Source of the DNA: Methylocapsa sp. S129
GTDB taxonomy: Bacteria; Pseudomonadota; Alphaproteobacteria; Rhizobiales; Beijerinckiaceae
Direction: 5' to 3'
Assembly: GCF_009765995.1 (NCBI RefSeq)
Contig: NZ_LMUI01000048.1
Span: 397,144 to 461,143, forward strand
Length of the DNA: 64,000 nucleotides
This document shows, one piece after another, positions 55,017-61,356 of this stretch; within the stretch, counting starts at the first letter, position 1, and each line of letters starts with the position of its first letter. The notes beneath the pieces are model-generated. The model was given only the letters and a program-made list of their open reading frames with translations, searched no databases and had not been told where the DNA came from. Made by a program: the position numbers and the translations under genes.

Positions 55017-55054
55017 GTCAGTGACTGACATTATCTGTTATGTCAGTCACTGAC
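55017..55054. promoter_or_regulatory. 15-bp perfect inverted repeat, probable TetR operator
   Basis: GTCAGTGACTGACAT and its exact complement ATGTCAGTCACTGAC flank an 8-bp spacer (TATCTGTT). Each arm is itself a near palindrome (GTCAGTGACTGAC), so two dimers could bind. Located between the divergent tetR and oxidoreductase genes, the classic place for a TetR operator. Confidence 0.85.
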
Positions 55055-55134
55055 TGATCCTAGCCGCGCGGCTTGGATTGCACAACCGCCAACAGGCATT
55101 CGCGCCCACGAGGCGACCAGCCAGGAGAACCACG

Positions 55135-56094
55135 ATGGCCGATCAAGCTTCCGCCACCATGAAAACACTTCAGGTCCGTAGCTATGGCGAACCCGCAGAC
55201 GTGCTGCATCTGGAAGAAGTCGCCATTCCCAGCCCAAAGGCGGACCGCATCCGCGTGAGGGTGCATGCGTGCGCGCTCAACCCGGCCGATTGGGCTGTAT
55301 GCAAAGGCTTCTTGGCCGTGCCTCCGCCGCGCGGGATAGGGTTCGACGTGTCGGGAGCCGTTGACGCAATCGGCGAGGGCGTCACAGGCGTCAATATCGG
55401 CGACCTCGTTTTCGGCGTCCCCGATTATAGGGGCTATCCGACCGCCGGGGCGTCGGAGTTTGCGATCCTCGCCGTCTGGCTGCCCGTCCCAAAGGGTCTC
55501 GATCTCGTCGAAGCCGCAGCATTGCCGATGGCCGTCGAAACGGCCACGCGCAGTCTCGATCTTCTCGGACTCGCCGCGGGCCAAACGATTATGATCAATG
55601 GTGGGGGGACGATGACCGGGTTCGCGGCCGTGCAGATCGCACTGTTGCGCGGCGCCCATGTGATCGCCAGCGCAGGCGAAACGTTCGCCGGCCGCTTGCG
55701 CGATCTCGGGGCCAAGGTGACGCCCTACGGCGATGGAATGGTCGAGCGGGTTCGCGCGATCGCGGGTGGAGCGCCCGATTTTGCTCTGCACACGGCGCAG
55801 GTCACGGGCGCGCTGCCCGATCTCATTAAAATCGTGGACGGCGATCCTCGCCGTGTGATGAGCTTTGCCGATTTTGACCAGGATGGTCTCGGCGTCCGCA
55901 CCACAGGGCGGGAGAAGGGCCTGGTTCCTCGCTATGACGTGCTCGGTCGTTACGCGCAGCTTGCCGCTGAAGGCCGGTTTACGATACCGATCGCCCGGAC
56001 CTTCGTTCTGGAGGATTGGCGCGAGGCGCTCGACCTCAGCCAGAACAAGCGGGCTCACGGCAAGCTCGTGCTTTTGCTCGACCGCGCCGCCTGA
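55135..56094 (+). CDS. NADP-dependent oxidoreductase (quinone oxidoreductase-like MDR)
   Basis: A 319-residue zinc-free medium-chain reductase. It opens MKTLQVRSYGEPADVLHLEEVAIPSP, has GFDVSGAVDAIGEGVTGVNIGDLVFGVP, and the nucleotide site is INGGGTMTGFAAVQIALLRGAHVIASAG, a variant of AxxGxVG. There are no catalytic zinc cysteines. Start ATG 55135 follows CCAGGAGAACC. Probably controlled by the divergent TetR protein; such genes answer reactive electrophiles or quinones. The 3' end overlaps the convergent DUF559 gene by 59 bp. Confidence 0.9.
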   Translation: MADQASATMKTLQVRSYGEPADVLHLEEVAIPSPKADRIRVRVHACALNPADWAVCKGFLAVPPPRGIGFDVSGAVDAIGEGVTGVNIGDLVFGVPDYRGYPTAGASEFAILAVWLPVPKGLDLVEAAALPMAVETATRSLDLLGLAAGQTIMINGGGTMTGFAAVQIALLRGAHVIASAGETFAGRLRDLGAKVTPYGDGMVERVRAIAGGAPDFALHTAQVTGALPDLIKIVDGDPRRVMSFADFDQDGLGVRTTGREKGLVPRYDVLGRYAQLAAEGRFTIPIARTFVLEDWREALDLSQNKRAHGKLVLLLDRAA

Positions 56095-56683
56095 CGGGAA
56101 TGGGGGCTTTCGCGCTCCCATGCCTGAAGGCCGCCGGCCCACTTACAAGCTGAGTGATCGGTCTTGCTTTGCAAAAGCCTTGCAGACCGTGCAGAACCGC
56201 GGCGGGCGGCCAGATCTCCCGCACGGCTGTCCGGTTGAGTTTTCTGACACGGCGGCGCTTATTCCCTCCCCCTTGTGGGGGAGGGTTAGGGAGGGGGCTC
56301 GCGCCGCCCTCGGAAGTATCGTCCTGCAGGCGCGGCCTCAGTTCAATCAGCTTCAATCGAATGGTTTCCAGCACGCCGTCGATATTGTGAAAAATCTCGT
56401 CATTGGTAAACCGAAGAACGCTGTAGCCTTGCGAACCCACCGCCGCGGCGCGTAGCATATCGCGCGCGCGTTCCGCGTCGCTCGAATGCGTGGCGCCGTC
56501 GACTTCTATGACGAGCCGCGCCTCGTGGCATGCGAAGTCCACGACGAAGCCCTTGAGGATAACCTGACGCCGAAATCTGAAACCGCCGATCTGTTGGCGT
56601 CTGACGCCATTCCATAAGCGATGTTCGGCGCTGGTCGCATTTGTCCTGAGTCTGCGCGCAATCAGTTTTAACCGGTGAGGCAT
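56036..56683 (-). CDS. DUF559 domain (Vsr-like endonuclease fold) protein with repeat-derived tail
   Basis: A 215-residue frame. Residues 1-115 form a DUF559 domain: ARRLRTNATSAEHRLWNGVRRQQIGGFRFRRQ, then VVDFACHEARLVIEVDGATH (the D...E-x-D nuclease core) and YSVLRFTNDEIFHNIDGVLETI. From about residue 120 the frame reads through a GC-rich palindrome (SPLPNPPPQGGG) and into the antisense of the oxidoreductase gene, so the last 80-90 residues are probably read-through after loss of the native stop. Role unknown; related proteins accompany repeats and mobile DNA. Confidence 0.78.
   Translation of the reverse strand: MPHRLKLIARRLRTNATSAEHRLWNGVRRQQIGGFRFRRQVILKGFVVDFACHEARLVIEVDGATHSSDAERARDMLRAAAVGSQGYSVLRFTNDEIFHNIDGVLETIRLKLIELRPRLQDDTSEGGASPLPNPPPQGGGNKRRRVRKLNRTAVREIWPPAAVLHGLQGFCKARPITQLVSGPAAFRHGSAKAPIPVRRRGRAKARACREPACSG
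56222..56238 (-). repeat. 17-bp dispersed repeat, copy 1
   Basis: On the minus strand it reads TCAACCGGACAGCCGTG. Two further copies (plus strand) lie at 56826-56842 (identical) and 58914-58931 (one extra A). All three sit in the gene-poor repeat zone beside palindromes. This copy is in the 3' part of the DUF559 frame. Confidence 0.7.
56264..56297 (+). repeat. GC-rich palindromic repeat, copy 1
   Basis: The hairpin CCCTCCCCC-TTGT-GGGGGAGGG is followed by TTAGGGAGGGGG. An inverted copy lies at 56691-56727, so the two flank the DUF559 domain. Short C/G-rich hairpins of this form are common intergenic repeats in alphaproteobacteria. Confidence 0.8.
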
Positions 56684-56690
56684 GCGCGAC

Positions 56691-56727
56691 CCCCCTCCCT
56701 AACCCTCCCCCACAAGGGGGGAGGGGA
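56691..56727 (-). repeat. GC-rich palindromic repeat, copy 2 (inverted)
   Basis: Reverse complement of the repeat at 56264-56297, with one extra base in the C-run. It begins 8 bp before the DUF559 start codon. The pair forms an inverted repeat about 430 bp apart around the gene. Confidence 0.8.
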
Positions 56728-56825
56728 TTCCAGCGCTCTAAATCCTATCGCGCGAATCTGCGTCCGTTGAGCGCCATTCGTCCCATTCGCGCCATCTCTT
56801 GTCCTTCCGAGCTACGCCAATTTCC

Positions 56826-56842
56826 TCAACCGGACAGCCGTG
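56826..56842 (+). repeat. 17-bp dispersed repeat, copy 2
   Basis: TCAACCGGACAGCCGTG, identical to copy 1 in opposite orientation. It lies in the roughly 300-bp gene-free stretch between the DUF559 gene and the secreted-protein gene; nothing else was recognised there besides the GC-rich palindrome. Confidence 0.7.
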
Positions 56843-56979
56843 GGTCTCCAACTGGTTCATTCTGGTCGCAGAATGGGGCTCGGCGCCACGACGCTCGGGC
56901 GCCGCTGGGACGGCCTCTGCCTCCAACATTTGGTTGAAGCGTTGGTCGCGCCGCGGCCATGCGCTTGTCTTGGCTGGCG

Positions 56980-57483
56980 CTATTGCGGCTCGTTGCCGAT
57001 CGGCGGAGCACAAGGTTTTATCGGCAAGGACCCTGTCCATTTATTGTAATGGATGCAGACCTCAACCGTCATCTTGTCGGATGCGTCGTCCCCGGTCCAA
57101 GCGGCGCGCATGTCGTACCAATAGTGCTGGTGGCAATAGTCGCCCGGACCGCCGTGGACGGCGACATTGACGGCGCCAAAGCCGCGCGTCGCCATATCGT
57201 AGACTGACGTAAATAACTCGCCTCCCGTGATGACGTCACCGTCCGGGATGTCTTGAATTGACAGGGCCTCCAATTCTGGATTGGCGCCGCGTCCAGCTTT
57301 GTAAACATGCGTTCCATCCGGCTTGCACCTCGGCGAATCCGCCGTGCAAAGCAGTATTTCTACGAGATAGCCCGGCTGGTCGACTCCCGGGGAAGCGGGA
57401 CACGGTTCGTGCGCCTGGCCACGATGGATTGCGCCCAGCGAAAAGAGCGCCGCGGCGAGAAGGATGCGCCACTTCGTGTTCAT
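56980..57483 (-). CDS. Secreted Cys-rich protein of unknown function
   Basis: A 167-residue protein starting at ATG 57483 after AAGGATCGGCAA. A signal peptide covers residues 1-25 (WRILLAAALFSLGAIHRGQAHA-like, cleavage near AHE). The mature part has six cysteines (HEPCP, LLCTAD, PRCKP, DYCHQHYWYD, EVCIHY, KPCAPP), enough for three disulfides, and a His/aromatic cluster CHQHYWYD. GDVITGGELFTSVYDM is another distinctive segment. No family recognised. Confidence 0.75.
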   Translation of the reverse strand: MNTKWRILLAAALFSLGAIHRGQAHEPCPASPGVDQPGYLVEILLCTADSPRCKPDGTHVYKAGRGANPELEALSIQDIPDGDVITGGELFTSVYDMATRGFGAVNVAVHGGPGDYCHQHYWYDMRAAWTGDDASDKMTVEVCIHYNKWTGSLPIKPCAPPIGNEPQ

Positions 57484-57653
57484 TTGCCGATCCTTGCCCA
57501 ATCGATCGCATGAAATGCGCGCGCGACTATGGCGGAGTTCGTGGGTCCGCCTCGCCGATCTGCGAATGATCCAGAGGGGATGCCGACTCAGAATCTGAAA
57601 ACTTTTGATCGAAATAGTCGAGGATGATCCATTGTTTCGCATGGCGGAGCGTG
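57484..57653. other. Intergenic region, left of the cloverleaf element
   Basis: The 344-bp gap between the two exported-protein genes holds the 94-bp cloverleaf palindrome described separately. The rest, including this part with the presumed promoter of the secreted-protein gene, shows nothing recognisable. Confidence 0.5.
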
Positions 57654-57747
57654 TTTCACCTCAGAAGGTTGGTCAAGTGCGCGCGAAAGCGCGCCGCCTC
57701 CGGCGGTCGCCCGCAGGGCGACACTTGACCAACCTTCTGAGGTGAAA
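57654..57747. repeat. Perfect 94-bp cloverleaf palindrome
   Basis: A 26-bp perfect stem (57654-57679 with 57722-57747; inner end GGTTGGTCAAGTG / CACTTGACCAACC) encloses three perfect hairpins that abut with no unpaired base between them. Hairpin 1 is CGCGC-GAAA-GCGCG (57680-57693), hairpin 2 is CCGCC-TCC-GGCGG (57694-57706), and hairpin 3 is TCGCCC-GCA-GGGCGA (57707-57721). The only unpaired bases are the three loops (4, 3 and 3 nt). No T-run follows on either strand, so it is not an ordinary terminator. It lies between two minus-strand genes. Confidence 0.9.
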
Positions 57748-57827
57748 AAAATGCCTCCATGCGAACAATGGCTCAATAACGAAACTGTCCCCGATATCAG
57801 TTCGATTCAATCAATTCTCATCTCGCT

Positions 57828-58478
57828 CTATACCTTCTCCAGCTTCAACCGGATGGCGTAACGCAGATCGCCTCCGGCGCTTTTGGGCACCAATTCGTCG
57901 ATATCCAGCGCTCTTGGCCCAATCATCGGGAACGGATCGAAGACAAAGCCGGCGACCAGCGGCGTCGGCCCGCTGGCTTTGGCGTAGGCGACCGCCGTCA
58001 ACACCACCGGATGCCCGCCGCCGACCAGGATGAGCGGGTCGCCATTCGACACCGCGTCGATCAGCGCGTTTTGGTCGAATTTGCCTCCCGGCGCGTCGGA
58101 ATCGAATATGGGTTCAGCGGAAACGCCGAACGCGACGCCGTCATCGTCCTTCCAGGCGCGCGCCAGCGGCCTAATGGCGGAGGAACTCGAATCCAACGCC
58201 ACCTTATCGACGTCCCCATAGGCTTCCTGGGCGATGCGCGGCTGCTGGACCACGTGCCCATAGGTGGCGAAGACAACGGCGACGCAGGCGATCCAGATGG
58301 CGGCTGGGTCATGCCGCGCGTGATAGGTCTCCTGATAGGCGTCATGAACGTCGATGAAGGTCTTGCACAATTCGCCGCCGTGCTTCGGGTCGGCGATGCA
58401 ACGCACATTGGCGCGCGCCATAGTCGCGACAACCAGCGGCGCCAGCGCCCCGACGAGAAAGTGACGTCTCGTGCGCAT
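57828..58478 (-). CDS. Tat-exported protein with possible papain-like peptidase fold
   Basis: A 216-residue protein. The twin-arginine signal is TRRHFLVGALAPLVVATMARA. The mature part carries CIADPKHGGELCKTFIDVHDAY, CVAVVFATYGHVVQQPRIAQEAYGD (a Cys followed by a helix, as in papain-like folds), NGDPLILVGGGHPVVLTAVAYAK (His) and FVFDPFPMIGPR (Asp/aromatic). The Cys...GGGHPVVLTAV...DP order resembles C39-like peptidases and their relatives. Start ATG 58478 after GGGAGGATGCAGGAC. Peptidase activity is a hypothesis. Confidence 0.72.
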   Translation of the reverse strand: MRTRRHFLVGALAPLVVATMARANVRCIADPKHGGELCKTFIDVHDAYQETYHARHDPAAIWIACVAVVFATYGHVVQQPRIAQEAYGDVDKVALDSSSSAIRPLARAWKDDDGVAFGVSAEPIFDSDAPGGKFDQNALIDAVSNGDPLILVGGGHPVVLTAVAYAKASGPTPLVAGFVFDPFPMIGPRALDIDELVPKSAGGDLRYAIRLKLEKV

Positions 58479-58725
58479 GTCCTGCATCCTCCCGGGATAT
58501 TGCTGTAACTTCACATGTTACCATACAACCTGGCGTGGTCGGGTGCAAGCGAGCCGTTTCAGGCCGCGGGCCGGAAACCGCGGCGCGACGGCCGGCTTGT
58601 GGAGCGCTCAGGCATTCGCGTCGTCGGCAAACGATTGGAAATGCGGGCGATCGCAAGGACCGGCACCGGGGCGGACATGGATTCGCGCTAACGGTTGAGG
58701 TGGCGCGAATGCCATCGTCGTGCTC

Positions 58726-58773
58726 GCCGTCAAGGGCAAGCCGCTTCGCGGGCGCTACGCGCCCCTTGACGGC
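58726..58773. repeat. Multi-hairpin palindrome, GTCAAGG stem
   Basis: The outer stem GCCGTCAAGGG / CCCTTGACGGC (11 bp) encloses CAAG, hairpin CCGC-TTC-GCGG and hairpin GCGC-TAC-GCGC. The layout (GTCAAG...CTTGAC stem with abutting GC-rich mini-hairpins) matches the larger cloverleaf at 57654 on a smaller scale. Confidence 0.75.
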
Positions 58774-58869
58774 TGCGCACACCAAAGCGACATGGATAGG
58801 AATTGCCGCGCCGACGAGACGCAGTCACCCCGCAGGGGCCGTAACGAAGTGAAGGAGCGGCGCAGCCGC

Positions 58870-58917
58870 TTGACGGCGCCTCGGCGGCGTGGCGCTCTCC
58901 CAAGCGCCCCGCGTCAA
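58870..58917. repeat. Multi-hairpin palindrome, TTGACG stem
   Basis: The outer stem TTGACG / CGTCAA encloses a CGCC-TC-GGCG hairpin and GGCGCT-CTCCCA-AGCGCC. It is a weaker third member of the group; the stem words are the same (TTGAC/GTCAA) but in inverted order. It runs directly into the third 17-bp dispersed repeat. Confidence 0.55.
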
Positions 58918-58931
58918 ACCGGACAGCCGTG
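58914..58931 (+). repeat. 17-bp dispersed repeat, copy 3
   Basis: TCAAACCGGACAGCCGTG differs from copies 1 and 2 by one inserted A. It overlaps the right arm of the preceding palindrome by four bases. Confidence 0.6.
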
Positions 58932-59071
58932 GGCTTATCCCGACCATGATGTCCACAGCTTGCATCATCATGAAATCCTGCGTTCTCCGTGCACGCTTGA
59001 GTTTCCCCGGACAGCGCTGCCTTGTGCGAGGGGCGGAAGCCCTCGCGCCCGGCCTAAGCGGGGCAGGCAGT

Positions 59072-59098
59072 ATATTCTTTCTGAAAAGAAGAATATAT
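59072..59098. repeat. AT-rich hairpin
   Basis: TATATTCTT / AAGAATATA is a perfect 9-bp inverted repeat with a 9-nt loop in a gene-free stretch. It could be an operator remnant or cruciform. No adjacent gene would clearly use it. Confidence 0.45.
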
Positions 59099-59440
59099 GA
59101 TAGTCTTCTCGTCTTGTTTTCCAAAAAGATGAGCGATGGAGAGGCCCGTCTTAAAGGCTCAAGTCCCTTCCGCCCGAAAGCCTGGTCAGCACGCGCGGGC
59201 GCGGTTTTGCGTCCGAAAATTTCGATGGGGAAGCCAAAACAGGGTCAAGCCTTTGATATCGCTCATTTCGCGGATGGAAATGCGCTTCCGCGCGCGTGAG
59301 AATCAAGGACTTAGAGGGTGTTTTGATGGACCGCGGTCGGTCATTCGAGGGTTCCGGCTATTCCCGGGCTATTCCCGCCAAGGTCTTTGCCGCCCTTGTG
59401 CGCCACGGACGGGACGTCGCCGAGCATCGGGCCGATGGAA

Positions 59441-60091
59441 TCAGGAAAGCGCGAGGCGCCGCCGCAGTTCGTCGACCTGCTCCGGCGTGAGGGGCCTGAT
59501 CGGCGAGCCGCGCAAGAGCAGGAAGAGCTTGGCGGTCTCCTCCAGCTCCTCGGTGGCGTATATCGCGTTTTCGAGACTGCTGCCGGCGACGACCGGGCCG
59601 TGATTGGCGAGCAGCACGGCATGATGTTCGCCGGCGAGTTTTTCCACCGCCGCCGCGAGGCTTTCGTCGCCAGGGGGATAATAGGGAACGAGCGGCAAGC
59701 GCCCGACGCGCATCACGTAATAGGCGGTGATCGGCGGCAGACAATTATGTTCGTCAATGCCGTGCAGGCAGGACACCGCCACCGAATGGGTGGAATGGAG
59801 ATGCACCACGGCCTCGCAGCTCGGCCTTTGCCGGTACATCACGCGATGGAGAAAAGCTTCCTTGGTGGGCTTGTCGCCGCCGACATGCTGACCTTGAGCG
59901 TCGATCTTGGACAGGCGCGCCGGATCGAGATCGCCGAGCGAGGCGTTGGTCGGCGTCATCAGCCAGCCGCCGTCGGGCAGGCTGACGGAAATATTGCCGG
60001 TCGACCCGAAAGTCAGGCCGCGTTGGAAGAGCGAGGCTCCGCAGGCGCAAATGCGTTCACGCAAGGCGGATTCGGTCGACGCCGGGTTCAT
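59441..60091 (-). CDS. otnC: 3-oxo-tetronate 4-phosphate decarboxylase (class II aldolase family)
   Basis: A 216-residue protein of the aldolase II/adducin family. It has FGSTGNISVSLPDGGWLMTPTNASLGDL (phosphate site), PSCEAVVHLHSTHSVAVSCL with the zinc His-x-His and a third His in HHAVLLANHGPVVAG. It decarboxylates 3-oxo-tetronate 4-phosphate to dihydroxyacetone phosphate. Start ATG 60091 overlaps the otnK stop (ATGA); the longer frame from 60106 lies inside otnK. Adjacent to otnK, as in threonate/erythronate operons. Confidence 0.92.
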   Translation of the reverse strand: MNPASTESALRERICACGASLFQRGLTFGSTGNISVSLPDGGWLMTPTNASLGDLDPARLSKIDAQGQHVGGDKPTKEAFLHRVMYRQRPSCEAVVHLHSTHSVAVSCLHGIDEHNCLPPITAYYVMRVGRLPLVPYYPPGDESLAAAVEKLAGEHHAVLLANHGPVVAGSSLENAIYATEELEETAKLFLLLRGSPIRPLTPEQVDELRRRLALS

Positions 60092-61356
60092 CGCAAATAT
60101 CTCCATGCCTTGAGAAAGAAGTCCGGCGCGCCGAAATTGCCCGATTTGAGGGCGAGAGCGACGTCCGGCCCGGACAGGCTGCGAGTCCAGGGCACGCCCG
60201 GGTCGATTTCGGGTCCGATCGACAAAGCCTTGACGCCGAGCGCGTTCACCACGGCGCCCGAAGTCTCGCCGCCCGCGACAAGGATGCGGGTGAAGCCGTG
60301 GGCCGGCAGCGCGGCGGCGACGGAGGCGAGAAGCTCTTCGACGATGCGGCCCGCATGGTCGCGGCCAAGCCTGTCCTGGACGAGGCGCACGCTATCGGGA
60401 TCGTCGCTCGAATAGACGAGCGGCGCGGCCTCGCCAGGTTGGCCATCGAGCCAATCGATCGCCTGCGCCGGCGTGAGGCGGCCCTCGGCGATGGCGATCG
60501 GGTCGATGCGGAAGGCCGGATTTCCCGCCTTGATTGCAACCTCGACCTGCCCTCTCGTCGCCGCCGAGCAGGAGCCCGCCAGGATGACGGCGCGGCCTTG
60601 CGGCGCCGCGATAGCGGGGGGAGGAGGCGTGAGGGCGCCGATCAAGCCAGCGTCGCAATAGGCGGCGGGCAGGCCGATCGCGACGCCTGAGCCGCCGGTC
60701 ACCAACGTTAGACTGGCCGCCGCGCCGCCGATGGCGCGCAGATGGGCGTCGGTCAGGGCGTCGACGATCGCGATGGCGCGGCCGGCCTTCTGTTCGCGCT
60801 CGAACGCGTGGGCGATGGCGGCGGGACCGGCGTCGACGTCGGCATAGGCGACATGGCCGACTTTGACGGCGGTCTGGCGCTGGAGGACGCGCCGCAGATC
60901 GGAATCGCGCATCGGCGTCAGCGGATGATCGCGCATGCCGCTCTCGTTCAGCGGCACGCCATTGACGAAGAGATGGCCCTGATAGATCGCGCGGCCGGTC
61001 GCCGGAAAGGCCGGGCAGGCGATGGTGAAGCGCGCTCCCAGCCGCTGCATCAGCGCCGCGGCGACCGGACCAATGTTGCCCTCATCGGTGGAATCAAACG
61101 TCGAACAGTATTTGAAAAAGAATCGCCTCGCGCCGGCGGCGAGCAGCCAGTCGGCCGCCGCCAGCGACTGGGCGACGGCCTCGGCTGCCGGAATCGTGCG
61201 CGACTTCAGCGCGACGACGACGGCGTCGGCTTCGGCCAGATCGAGATCGCCCGGCGGCAGGCTAGTCGTCTGCACCGTGCGCAGGCCCTCGCGGGACAGC
61301 ATCAGGGAGAGGTCGGTTGCGCCCGTCAGGTCGTCGGCAATGCATCCCAGCAGCAT
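60088..61356 (-). CDS. otnK: 3-oxo-tetronate kinase (four-carbon acid sugar kinase family)
   Basis: A 422-residue kinase of the DUF1537 group. The N-terminal domain opens GCIADDLTGATDLSLMLSREGLRTVQT and has FFFKYCSTFDSTDEGNIGPVA, the conserved substrate site. The C-terminal domain has ILVAGGETSGAVVNALGVKALSIGPEIDPGVPW with the nucleotide-binding glycines. It phosphorylates 3-oxo-tetronate at C4. Upstream of and overlapping otnC; lacI lies 23 bp before its start. Confidence 0.93.
   Translation of the reverse strand: MLLGCIADDLTGATDLSLMLSREGLRTVQTTSLPPGDLDLAEADAVVVALKSRTIPAAEAVAQSLAAADWLLAAGARRFFFKYCSTFDSTDEGNIGPVAAALMQRLGARFTIACPAFPATGRAIYQGHLFVNGVPLNESGMRDHPLTPMRDSDLRRVLQRQTAVKVGHVAYADVDAGPAAIAHAFEREQKAGRAIAIVDALTDAHLRAIGGAAASLTLVTGGSGVAIGLPAAYCDAGLIGALTPPPPAIAAPQGRAVILAGSCSAATRGQVEVAIKAGNPAFRIDPIAIAEGRLTPAQAIDWLDGQPGEAAPLVYSSDDPDSVRLVQDRLGRDHAGRIVEELLASVAAALPAHGFTRILVAGGETSGAVVNALGVKALSIGPEIDPGVPWTRSLSGPDVALALKSGNFGAPDFFLKAWRYLR

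Follow-up and report, generated by a model that had tools for sequence, protein, structure and literature searches.

Long palindromes in bacterial genomes tend to be deleted, and the locus studied here raises the question of what a long and perfect one is and what keeps it perfect. The window that we analysed is a 64-kb stretch of the genome of Methylocapsa sp. S129 (genome G000, 6.87 Mb in 62 contigs; window G000:C59:397144-461143). From direct reading of the sequence, positions 57654-57747 form a perfect stem of 26 bp closed on three perfect hairpins, with all unpaired bases in loops, i.e. 42 pairs and 10 loop bases for 94 bases. On the plus strand, the left arm of the stem (57654-57679), whose inner end is GTCAAGTG (class motif approximately GTCAAKGR), is followed by hairpin 1 (57680-57693; CGCGC-GAAA-GCGCG, 5 bp, loop GAAA), hairpin 2 (57694-57706; CCGCC-TCC-GGCGG, 5 bp, loop TCC), hairpin 3 (57707-57721; TCGCCC-GCA-GGGCGA, 6 bp, loop GCA) and the right arm of the stem (57722-57747). 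The predicted DNA fold of positions 57640-57760 is this same cloverleaf. Its energy is -50.8 kcal/mol, while 200 dinucleotide shuffles give -21.1 ± 2.9 and none does as well (z = -10.1). The sequence and its fold thus confirm the original prediction, which had described a perfect stem of 26 bp and three hairpins, unpaired only in their loops (GAAA, TCC and GCA). With a gap of at most 60 bases, no perfect arms in the window exceed these 26 bp, while 20 mononucleotide shuffles of it reached a maximum of 14. Imperfect pairing extends 18 bases farther out on each side, giving arms of 44 nt that are 86% complementary (57636-57679 and 57722-57765).

The cloverleaf lies at the centre of two further layers. 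The outer carrier repeat (module A, 57592-57830, plus strand) is an imperfect palindrome with the consensus TA-GAGCCTGATGA...TCATCTCGCTC-TA; the window copy has a degenerate TA on the left, and its right CTA (57828-57830) serves as the stop codon of a minus-strand ORF (57828-58514). The inner frame (module B) has a left arm at 57625-57653 (TGATCCATTGTTTCGCATGGCGGAGCGTG, plus strand), which contains AGCGTG, one side of an asymmetric internal loop, and a right arm at 57748-57778 (AAAATGCCTCCATGCGAACAATGGCTCAATA, plus strand), which contains the opposite side. From the outside inwards, one therefore reads module A (TAGAGCCTGATGACTTTTGATCGAA...TTCGATTCAATCAATTCTCATCTCGCTCTA), module B (GATCCATCGTTTCGCATGG...CCATGCGAACAATGGCTC), the stem and the three hairpins.

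We then searched the Methylocapsa genome for the whole element. The search returned five near-full matches (93-100% identity) and many partial ones; at E ≤ 10, 61 matches were obtained on both strands, and 26 when a query of 154 bases was used. Sixteen complete copies share the frame GGCGGAGCGTG-[TTTCAC...GTGAAA]-AAAATGCC, with GAGCGTT in one of them, and one truncated copy was extracted with them (C59:193395). At least eight further cloverleafs or relatives differ from these in frame and stem (C50:16497, C30:62447, C38:410648, C42:93259, C17:185189, C49:78685, C23:207460 and C59:308680). When 20 weaker places were folded and judged by eye, six proved to be long-stemmed cloverleafs or relatives, four were fragments of the outer repeat and the rest were neither. 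The original prediction had called for a search for other copies in this genome and in relatives; many were found, so the sequence is neither unique nor unconserved.

Module A is present on both sides of 12 of the 16 same-frame copies, as an imperfect palindrome of about 230 bp with the cloverleaf at its tip, and module B also occurs in other surroundings (L018, L019, L022 and the copy at C59:13868). At C27:293567 the frame is present and the cloverleaf absent, and at C6:28350 module B is absent as well. Nesting goes on inside the leaves of some copies other than the window one: a further double hairpin, AGGGCGTCGAAAGACGCCCGTC....GACGGGCTTT with variation, lies within one leaf at C17:637104, C59:308680 and C59:193395, and a different insert is found in the middle leaf at C23:207460 and C49:78704. 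Either insertion of the nested pieces or, for the shorter forms, deletion at short repeats could account for these differences. The ends of module A (TAGAGC..TGATGA / TCATCTCGCTCTA) make the element a short, non-coding, multi-copy sequence with terminal inverted repeats, as MITEs are; its left-end pattern, with at most three mismatches, gave 12 matches, part of which were followed outward in search of a longer element. The palindrome CGTCATTGCGAGCGGAGCGAAGCAATCCAG forms two long inverted pairs close to cloverleaf copies (L019: C59:193662 and C59:194387). In genomes G019 and G083, a long hairpin insert (around AGATAAGT.TACGCAATCTGCGTAAACTT) sits in the third leaf of one element each (L226 and L234), a further case of leaf nesting.

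Comparison of the 16 same-frame copies shows that the two arms of the stem change together. Between the seven copies of the TCAGAAGG type and the other nine, identity is 93.3% over 67 flanking bases and only 57.6-57.7% in each arm. This contrast is small or absent within groups (flank 0.955 vs. arms 0.956-0.967 in the TCAGAAGG type; 0.926 vs. 0.868-0.876 in the other nine). Nevertheless, 24 to 26 of the 26 stem pairs are intact in every copy, i.e. 410 of 416 pairs when pooled, with 6 unpaired positions and no G.T pair. About 25 unpaired positions would be expected at the flank rate (28/944), a crude expectation since the copies are related and the flanks possibly constrained. In an alignment of 23 cloverleafs (A2; 19 from G000 and four from genome records, with L020, whose core is the same as that of L019, and L023, L095, L109 and L110, which carry leaf inserts, left aside), hairpin 2 is the least variable leaf. 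In this alignment, 97.3% of 927 cells pair, against 35-45% in slid controls, over which the A2 structure is favoured because it was derived from the same sequences. Two-sided changes number 206, against 59.7 in shuffles, and one-sided changes 6. The number of further pair types (53 vs. 48.9 in shuffles, 41 of 500 of which reach this value) is one of five covariation measures and does not clearly exceed chance. G.T pairs are rare as well: over 81 distinct elements from 13 genomes, they make up 67 of 3210 predicted pairs (2.1%), against 12.1% in mononucleotide shuffles, which are free of structure. By genome, this proportion ranges from 0.9 to 5.7% (4.8% in G057).

The same behaviour is found in other genomes, with exceptions. 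In G118, 13 places with the frame GCATTTTC-[7 bases]-TTGTCAAGG show seven different sequences of the 7-base patch; 12 of these places are perfectly complementary and one has a single G.T (L272 and L273 being shown on both strands). In the GCGCCG..TGTCAAGG family of G010, five copies have arms that differ in sequence and are perfect in each, and a sixth copy (L242) has three mismatches. Another family (L236, L239, L245 and L246, from G010 and G006) shows in every member the same single G/G or C/C mismatch, whose side switches with the orientation. In G019, the outer stem is consistently imperfect, while paired variation is seen by eye in the inner GTCAAKGA box and in the leaves. Near-perfect pairing of the arms is therefore not a universal rule. 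In the G118 elements L263-L274, the variation of a brief outer segment (TTACTTTCC / GGAAAGTAA and variants) likewise looks paired by eye, with exceptions, across an internal loop that remains asymmetric.

Arms that have diverged between copies and are still paired point to a continuing correction at the DNA level. The rarity of G.T pairs argues in the same direction, since selection on an RNA fold would tolerate them, and the whole pattern suggests that one arm has served as the template of the other. The original prediction had attributed the perfection of the palindrome to recent formation or to strong selection; this choice appears too narrow, because the arms are far diverged between copies and nevertheless complementary. 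The asymmetric internal loop is kept in the outer frame. Arm correction, if real, thus ends at this loop, or selection opposes it there.

We also examined the orientation of the three-hairpin interior. Read along the frame, seven copies (L009-L013, L016 and L017) have the CGCGC leaf in first position and nine (L014, L015 and L018-L024) in last position, and both orientations occur with both stem groups. Template switching between the arms of an inverted repeat has been described as a process that makes the arms alike and flips the spacer (PMC8604942), and as one by which hairpin stems stay perfect through multi-base changes (PMC8794818). Both the homogenization of arms and the inversion of the spacer or loop are patterns seen in the cloverleaf family; these studies deal with yeast coding genes and RNA genes, whereas our observations run across a repeat family. 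We propose that a polymerase would switch template between the arms at replication, copying one arm onto the other and occasionally inverting the interior, which would account for the near-exact complementarity and for the two orientations. For a folded recombination site, also raised in the original prediction, nothing speaks directly, even though both orientations of the interior are found.

To follow the element beyond this strain, 120 genomes were searched with a covariance model of the cloverleaf class (R1), built from 23 sequences, 19 of them from G000, so that hits in G000 are found by construction. With 35 candidates scored per genome, stricter filters and both strands counted, copy numbers are lower bounds, and E-values are rough. 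At E ≤ 1e-4, matches were found in at least 15 of the 120 genomes (G000 included) and in 7 of 91 genera. The richest genomes have at least 33 (G000), 30 (G019), 23 (G118), 19 (G083), 16 (G010), 15 (G057) and 10 (G006) matches on both strands. Several R1 hits fall close to contig ends in G010, G057 and G118; short-read assemblies thus probably break at these palindromes, which would then be under-counted. In the window itself, a second, degenerate multi-hairpin palindrome (58806-58892, plus strand) is a weak match to the cloverleaf model (E = 0.0044) and is tentatively related to it. A further multi-hairpin palindrome at 58720-58780 matches more weakly still (E = 0.085). Both are possibly decayed relatives of the cloverleaf.

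A scan of named species genomes with one motif gave 64 stretches, of which eight pass a stem test (a TTGAC partner no more than 120 bases away and a stem score of at least 8), the other 56 being left aside. The eight come from a Hyphomicrobiales MAG (two contigs), an Alphaproteobacteria MAG, a Xanthobacteraceae MAG, two Rhodobacteraceae MAGs, a Myxococcales MAG and a contig labelled Paceibacterota, which may be mis-binned; stems are short or imperfect in three of them (L154, L139 and L153). A pattern scan of IMG/VR gave four stretches on putative viral contigs (L315, L316, L317 and L318), three of which fold to a full cloverleaf, the examined slice of the fourth stopping short of the far arm. 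L318 has a nested double hairpin resembling that of bacterial copies.

The ends of the element and the genes around it were then considered. By eye, TA is found at the left end of module A in 9 of 17 cases and at the right end in 12 of 17, for a TA frequency of 0.016 in the window. A neighbouring ORF, from a crude ORF calling, stops exactly at the end of module A at 13 of 34 ends (5 left and 8 right), and the terminal TA of the outer repeat often falls at a stop codon in this GC-rich genome. Moreover, 9 of the 16 G000 copies lie between convergent genes, against 4 of 27 window gaps of at least 60 nt (P = 0.00015); in G019, this is the case for 8 of the 13 classifiable copies (16 examined). Both the ends at stop codons and the convergent bias would follow from an insertion that targets TA and regenerates a stop codon on either side. 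The original prediction had proposed a search for a flanking target duplication. None was found beyond the terminal TA, which could equally belong to the terminal repeat, among 17 module A copies and 13 usable copies from G019 and G083 (19 tried, 6 dropped for a missing anchor); the best offset reaches a z of about 3 after choosing among many.

Presence and absence were compared between G019 and G083, which belong to the same genus. Between an fmt-like and a truA-like gene (86-88% DNA identity between the two genomes), G019 carries an element, whereas the corresponding stretch of G083 lacks one and consists of about 420 bases of other DNA. On the downstream side of truA, the element is full in G019, and in G083 the outer frame is present without the cloverleaf. 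Either gain or loss thus occurred at these sites. Neither of the two sites compared is a clean empty site, and a site that looks "empty" may just as well have lost the element by deletion at short direct repeats (GTG, CGAA). Around the window element (55050-60450), a comparison with 10 other genomes of the genus (27 candidates each) gave no match to the genes beside the element; the only matches were to repeats and to a DUF559 stretch. This stretch (56036-56683, minus strand) is a DUF559 endonuclease-like gene (Pfam E = 5.8e-36), at which a G-rich repeat, CCCTCCCTAACCCTCCCCC, is found in inverted copies (56684-56728 and 56261-56304). Similar stretches exist elsewhere in G000 (C59:197868 and C59:234388), and the gene with its inverted repeats looks like a small mobile unit.

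With a probability that we put at about 0.6, the window element is therefore one copy of a non-coding, nested MITE- or REP-like repeat, spread in trans by a transposase, whose arms are homogenized by template switching. In this reading, transposition would be the means of spread and template switching the means of upkeep. A trans-acting transposase spreading a non-autonomous element is what the copy number, the ends and the lack of coding sequence suggest. A mobile palindromic element moved in trans was also the part of the original prediction that fared best, given the many copies, the ends tending to TA and the presence or absence at two sites in two congeneric species.

No transposase carrying the module A ends was found in a search that covered the Y1 family. 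Y1 genes were matched six times in G000 and once each in G006, G005 and G118. Four of the eight genomes searched (G010, G019, G083 and G057), all rich in R1 matches, have none; G019 is a single contig and the three others are drafts. A Y1 transposase in the same genome is thus not required. Genes lying between neighbouring elements were considered as hidden transposases and rejected: in G019, a truA-like ORF and a downstream ORF of 114 aa that overlaps the second element; in G118, ORFs whose translations resemble apt and mtnP. In L019, no ORF of at least 120 aa separates two neighbouring elements. A REPIN or TIR family moved by the genome's own RAYT-type Y1 transposases would fit the six Y1 matches of G000 and the fact that one cloverleaf family adjoins sequence common to a Y1 locus: the DNA by Y1 locus L279 is about 85% identical to the flanks of palindrome L114, and 84% identical over 73 bases to the flank of cloverleaf L092. 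However, the Y1 loci L280, L281 and L282 of G000 are bounded by an inverted repeat close to ATTACGGTGACACGCCCGT, which differs from the ends of the window element, the GTAG tag is not consistent at the module A ends (1 of 17 left ends), and the four element-rich genomes mentioned above have no Y1 match. These features also separate the element from REPs and REPINs of the RAYT type, and we hold a mover of this kind to be very unlikely. L280-L282 themselves fit the description of TIRtrons in PMC3733652. Nearly as doubtful is a transfer by hairpin, in which an HUH-type nuclease would nick the asymmetric internal loop and the folded arm would prime the synthesis of the other. In the terminal repeats of parvoviruses, hairpin transfer gives perfect arms and flip/flop interiors, and the perfect inner arms, the interior found in both orientations and the asymmetric loop that separates inner and outer arms in several genera recall this scheme. 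However, no nuclease is linked to the element, Y1 being the HUH family searched and giving no hit in G010, G019, G083 and G057, and ordinary template switching accounts for the perfect arms and the two orientations. There is likewise only a slim chance that these are dispersed chromosomal elements rebuilt from one arm at each cycle in a parvovirus-like manner (nick at the asymmetric loop, self-primed synthesis, flip of the interior), with a hypervariable self-complementary patch that marks lineages.

The strongest alternative to a mobile repeat corrected by template switching is a role at transcript ends, as a bidirectional 3'-end stabilizer, Rho blocker or terminator whose arms are kept paired by selection on the RNA fold; we nevertheless consider it unlikely. 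The convergent bias in G000 and G019 and the strong paired covariation speak for it. In the window copy, however, the stem is not followed on either strand by the T tract of an intrinsic terminator (AAAATG on the plus strand, CACGC on the minus strand), and no family of Rfam 15 matches the 64-kb window at the gathering score. G.T pairs are rare, whereas RNA selection would tolerate them, and an insertion preference (TA-like ends at stop codons) could by itself explain the convergent bias. The original prediction had judged the layout to recall hairpin telomeres or recombination sites more than a terminator; the anatomy of the window copy agrees with it as to the terminator, while the 9 copies out of 16 between convergent genes weigh the other way. 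It had also named an assembly artefact as a possible undoing. Several R1 hits near contig ends in G057, G010 and G118 are indeed what an assembly disturbed by palindromes predicts, but independent copies with different stems are found in several assemblies, including the single contig of G019, and the window copy lies inside a contig of 520 kb. This internal position, together with the dispersion of the copies, also speaks against a viral hairpin telomere. A blastn search of window positions 57600-57800 (201 bases) against 50,697 phage records and against plasmids, carried out for a viral telomere or phage origin, gave no match at E = 0.01. The class does reach a few putative viral contigs, and a telomere role is unsupported. 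We regard artefact and telomere alike as scarcely credible.

Among known repeats, the bacterial MITEs RUP, NEMIS/Correia, ERIC and Nezha are likewise short, non-coding, repeated, mostly intergenic and bounded by inverted termini. RUP-type elements have a TA target and TA-bounded ends, and the ends of the cloverleaf carrier likewise tend to be TA. The cloverleaf element differs from these MITEs by its nesting, its cloverleaf tip and the coupled divergence of its arms, and no partner insertion sequence was found for it. REPINs and TIRtrons (RAYT, TIRYT) resemble it by their paired inverted units, and G000 has Y1 loci with terminal repeats, but the ends of the cloverleaf are different and the element is also present in genomes for which the search gave no Y1 gene. 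Mitochondrial double-hairpin elements and cyanobacterial small dispersed repeats are small hairpin elements that move or nest, smaller than the cloverleaf element; to our knowledge, neither a cloverleaf nor a coupled evolution of arms is known for them. CGTC REPs are palindromic and dispersed, and this type is common in alphaproteobacteria and without a known transposase, according to Di Nocera et al. (2013, PMC3733652). The outer frames of the cloverleaf element in relatives often start near CGTC or CGCC. However, Table 1 of that study gives stems of 8-9 bp and loops of 4-5 bases for CGTC REPs, whereas the cloverleaf class has stems of about 20-28 bp, two or three leaves and larger frames; with such stem and loop sizes, the element falls outside the CGTC-tagged REPs.

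A literature search of limited depth returned no description of such elements. The cloverleaf family appears to be a variant, not previously described, of repeated mobile-looking palindromes, and its record of arm copying is unusually valuable. The survival and perfection of long palindromes in bacteria is an open question that this family addresses, with dozens of natural replicates in which the arms differ between copies and seldom from each other, and in which the interior is found in two orientations. Template switching or hairpin-primed copying would thus be measurable in wild genomes. With their mutual nesting and their occurrence on putative viral contigs, these elements would be a tractable system in which to study small hairpin-based repeats that lack a known transposase.
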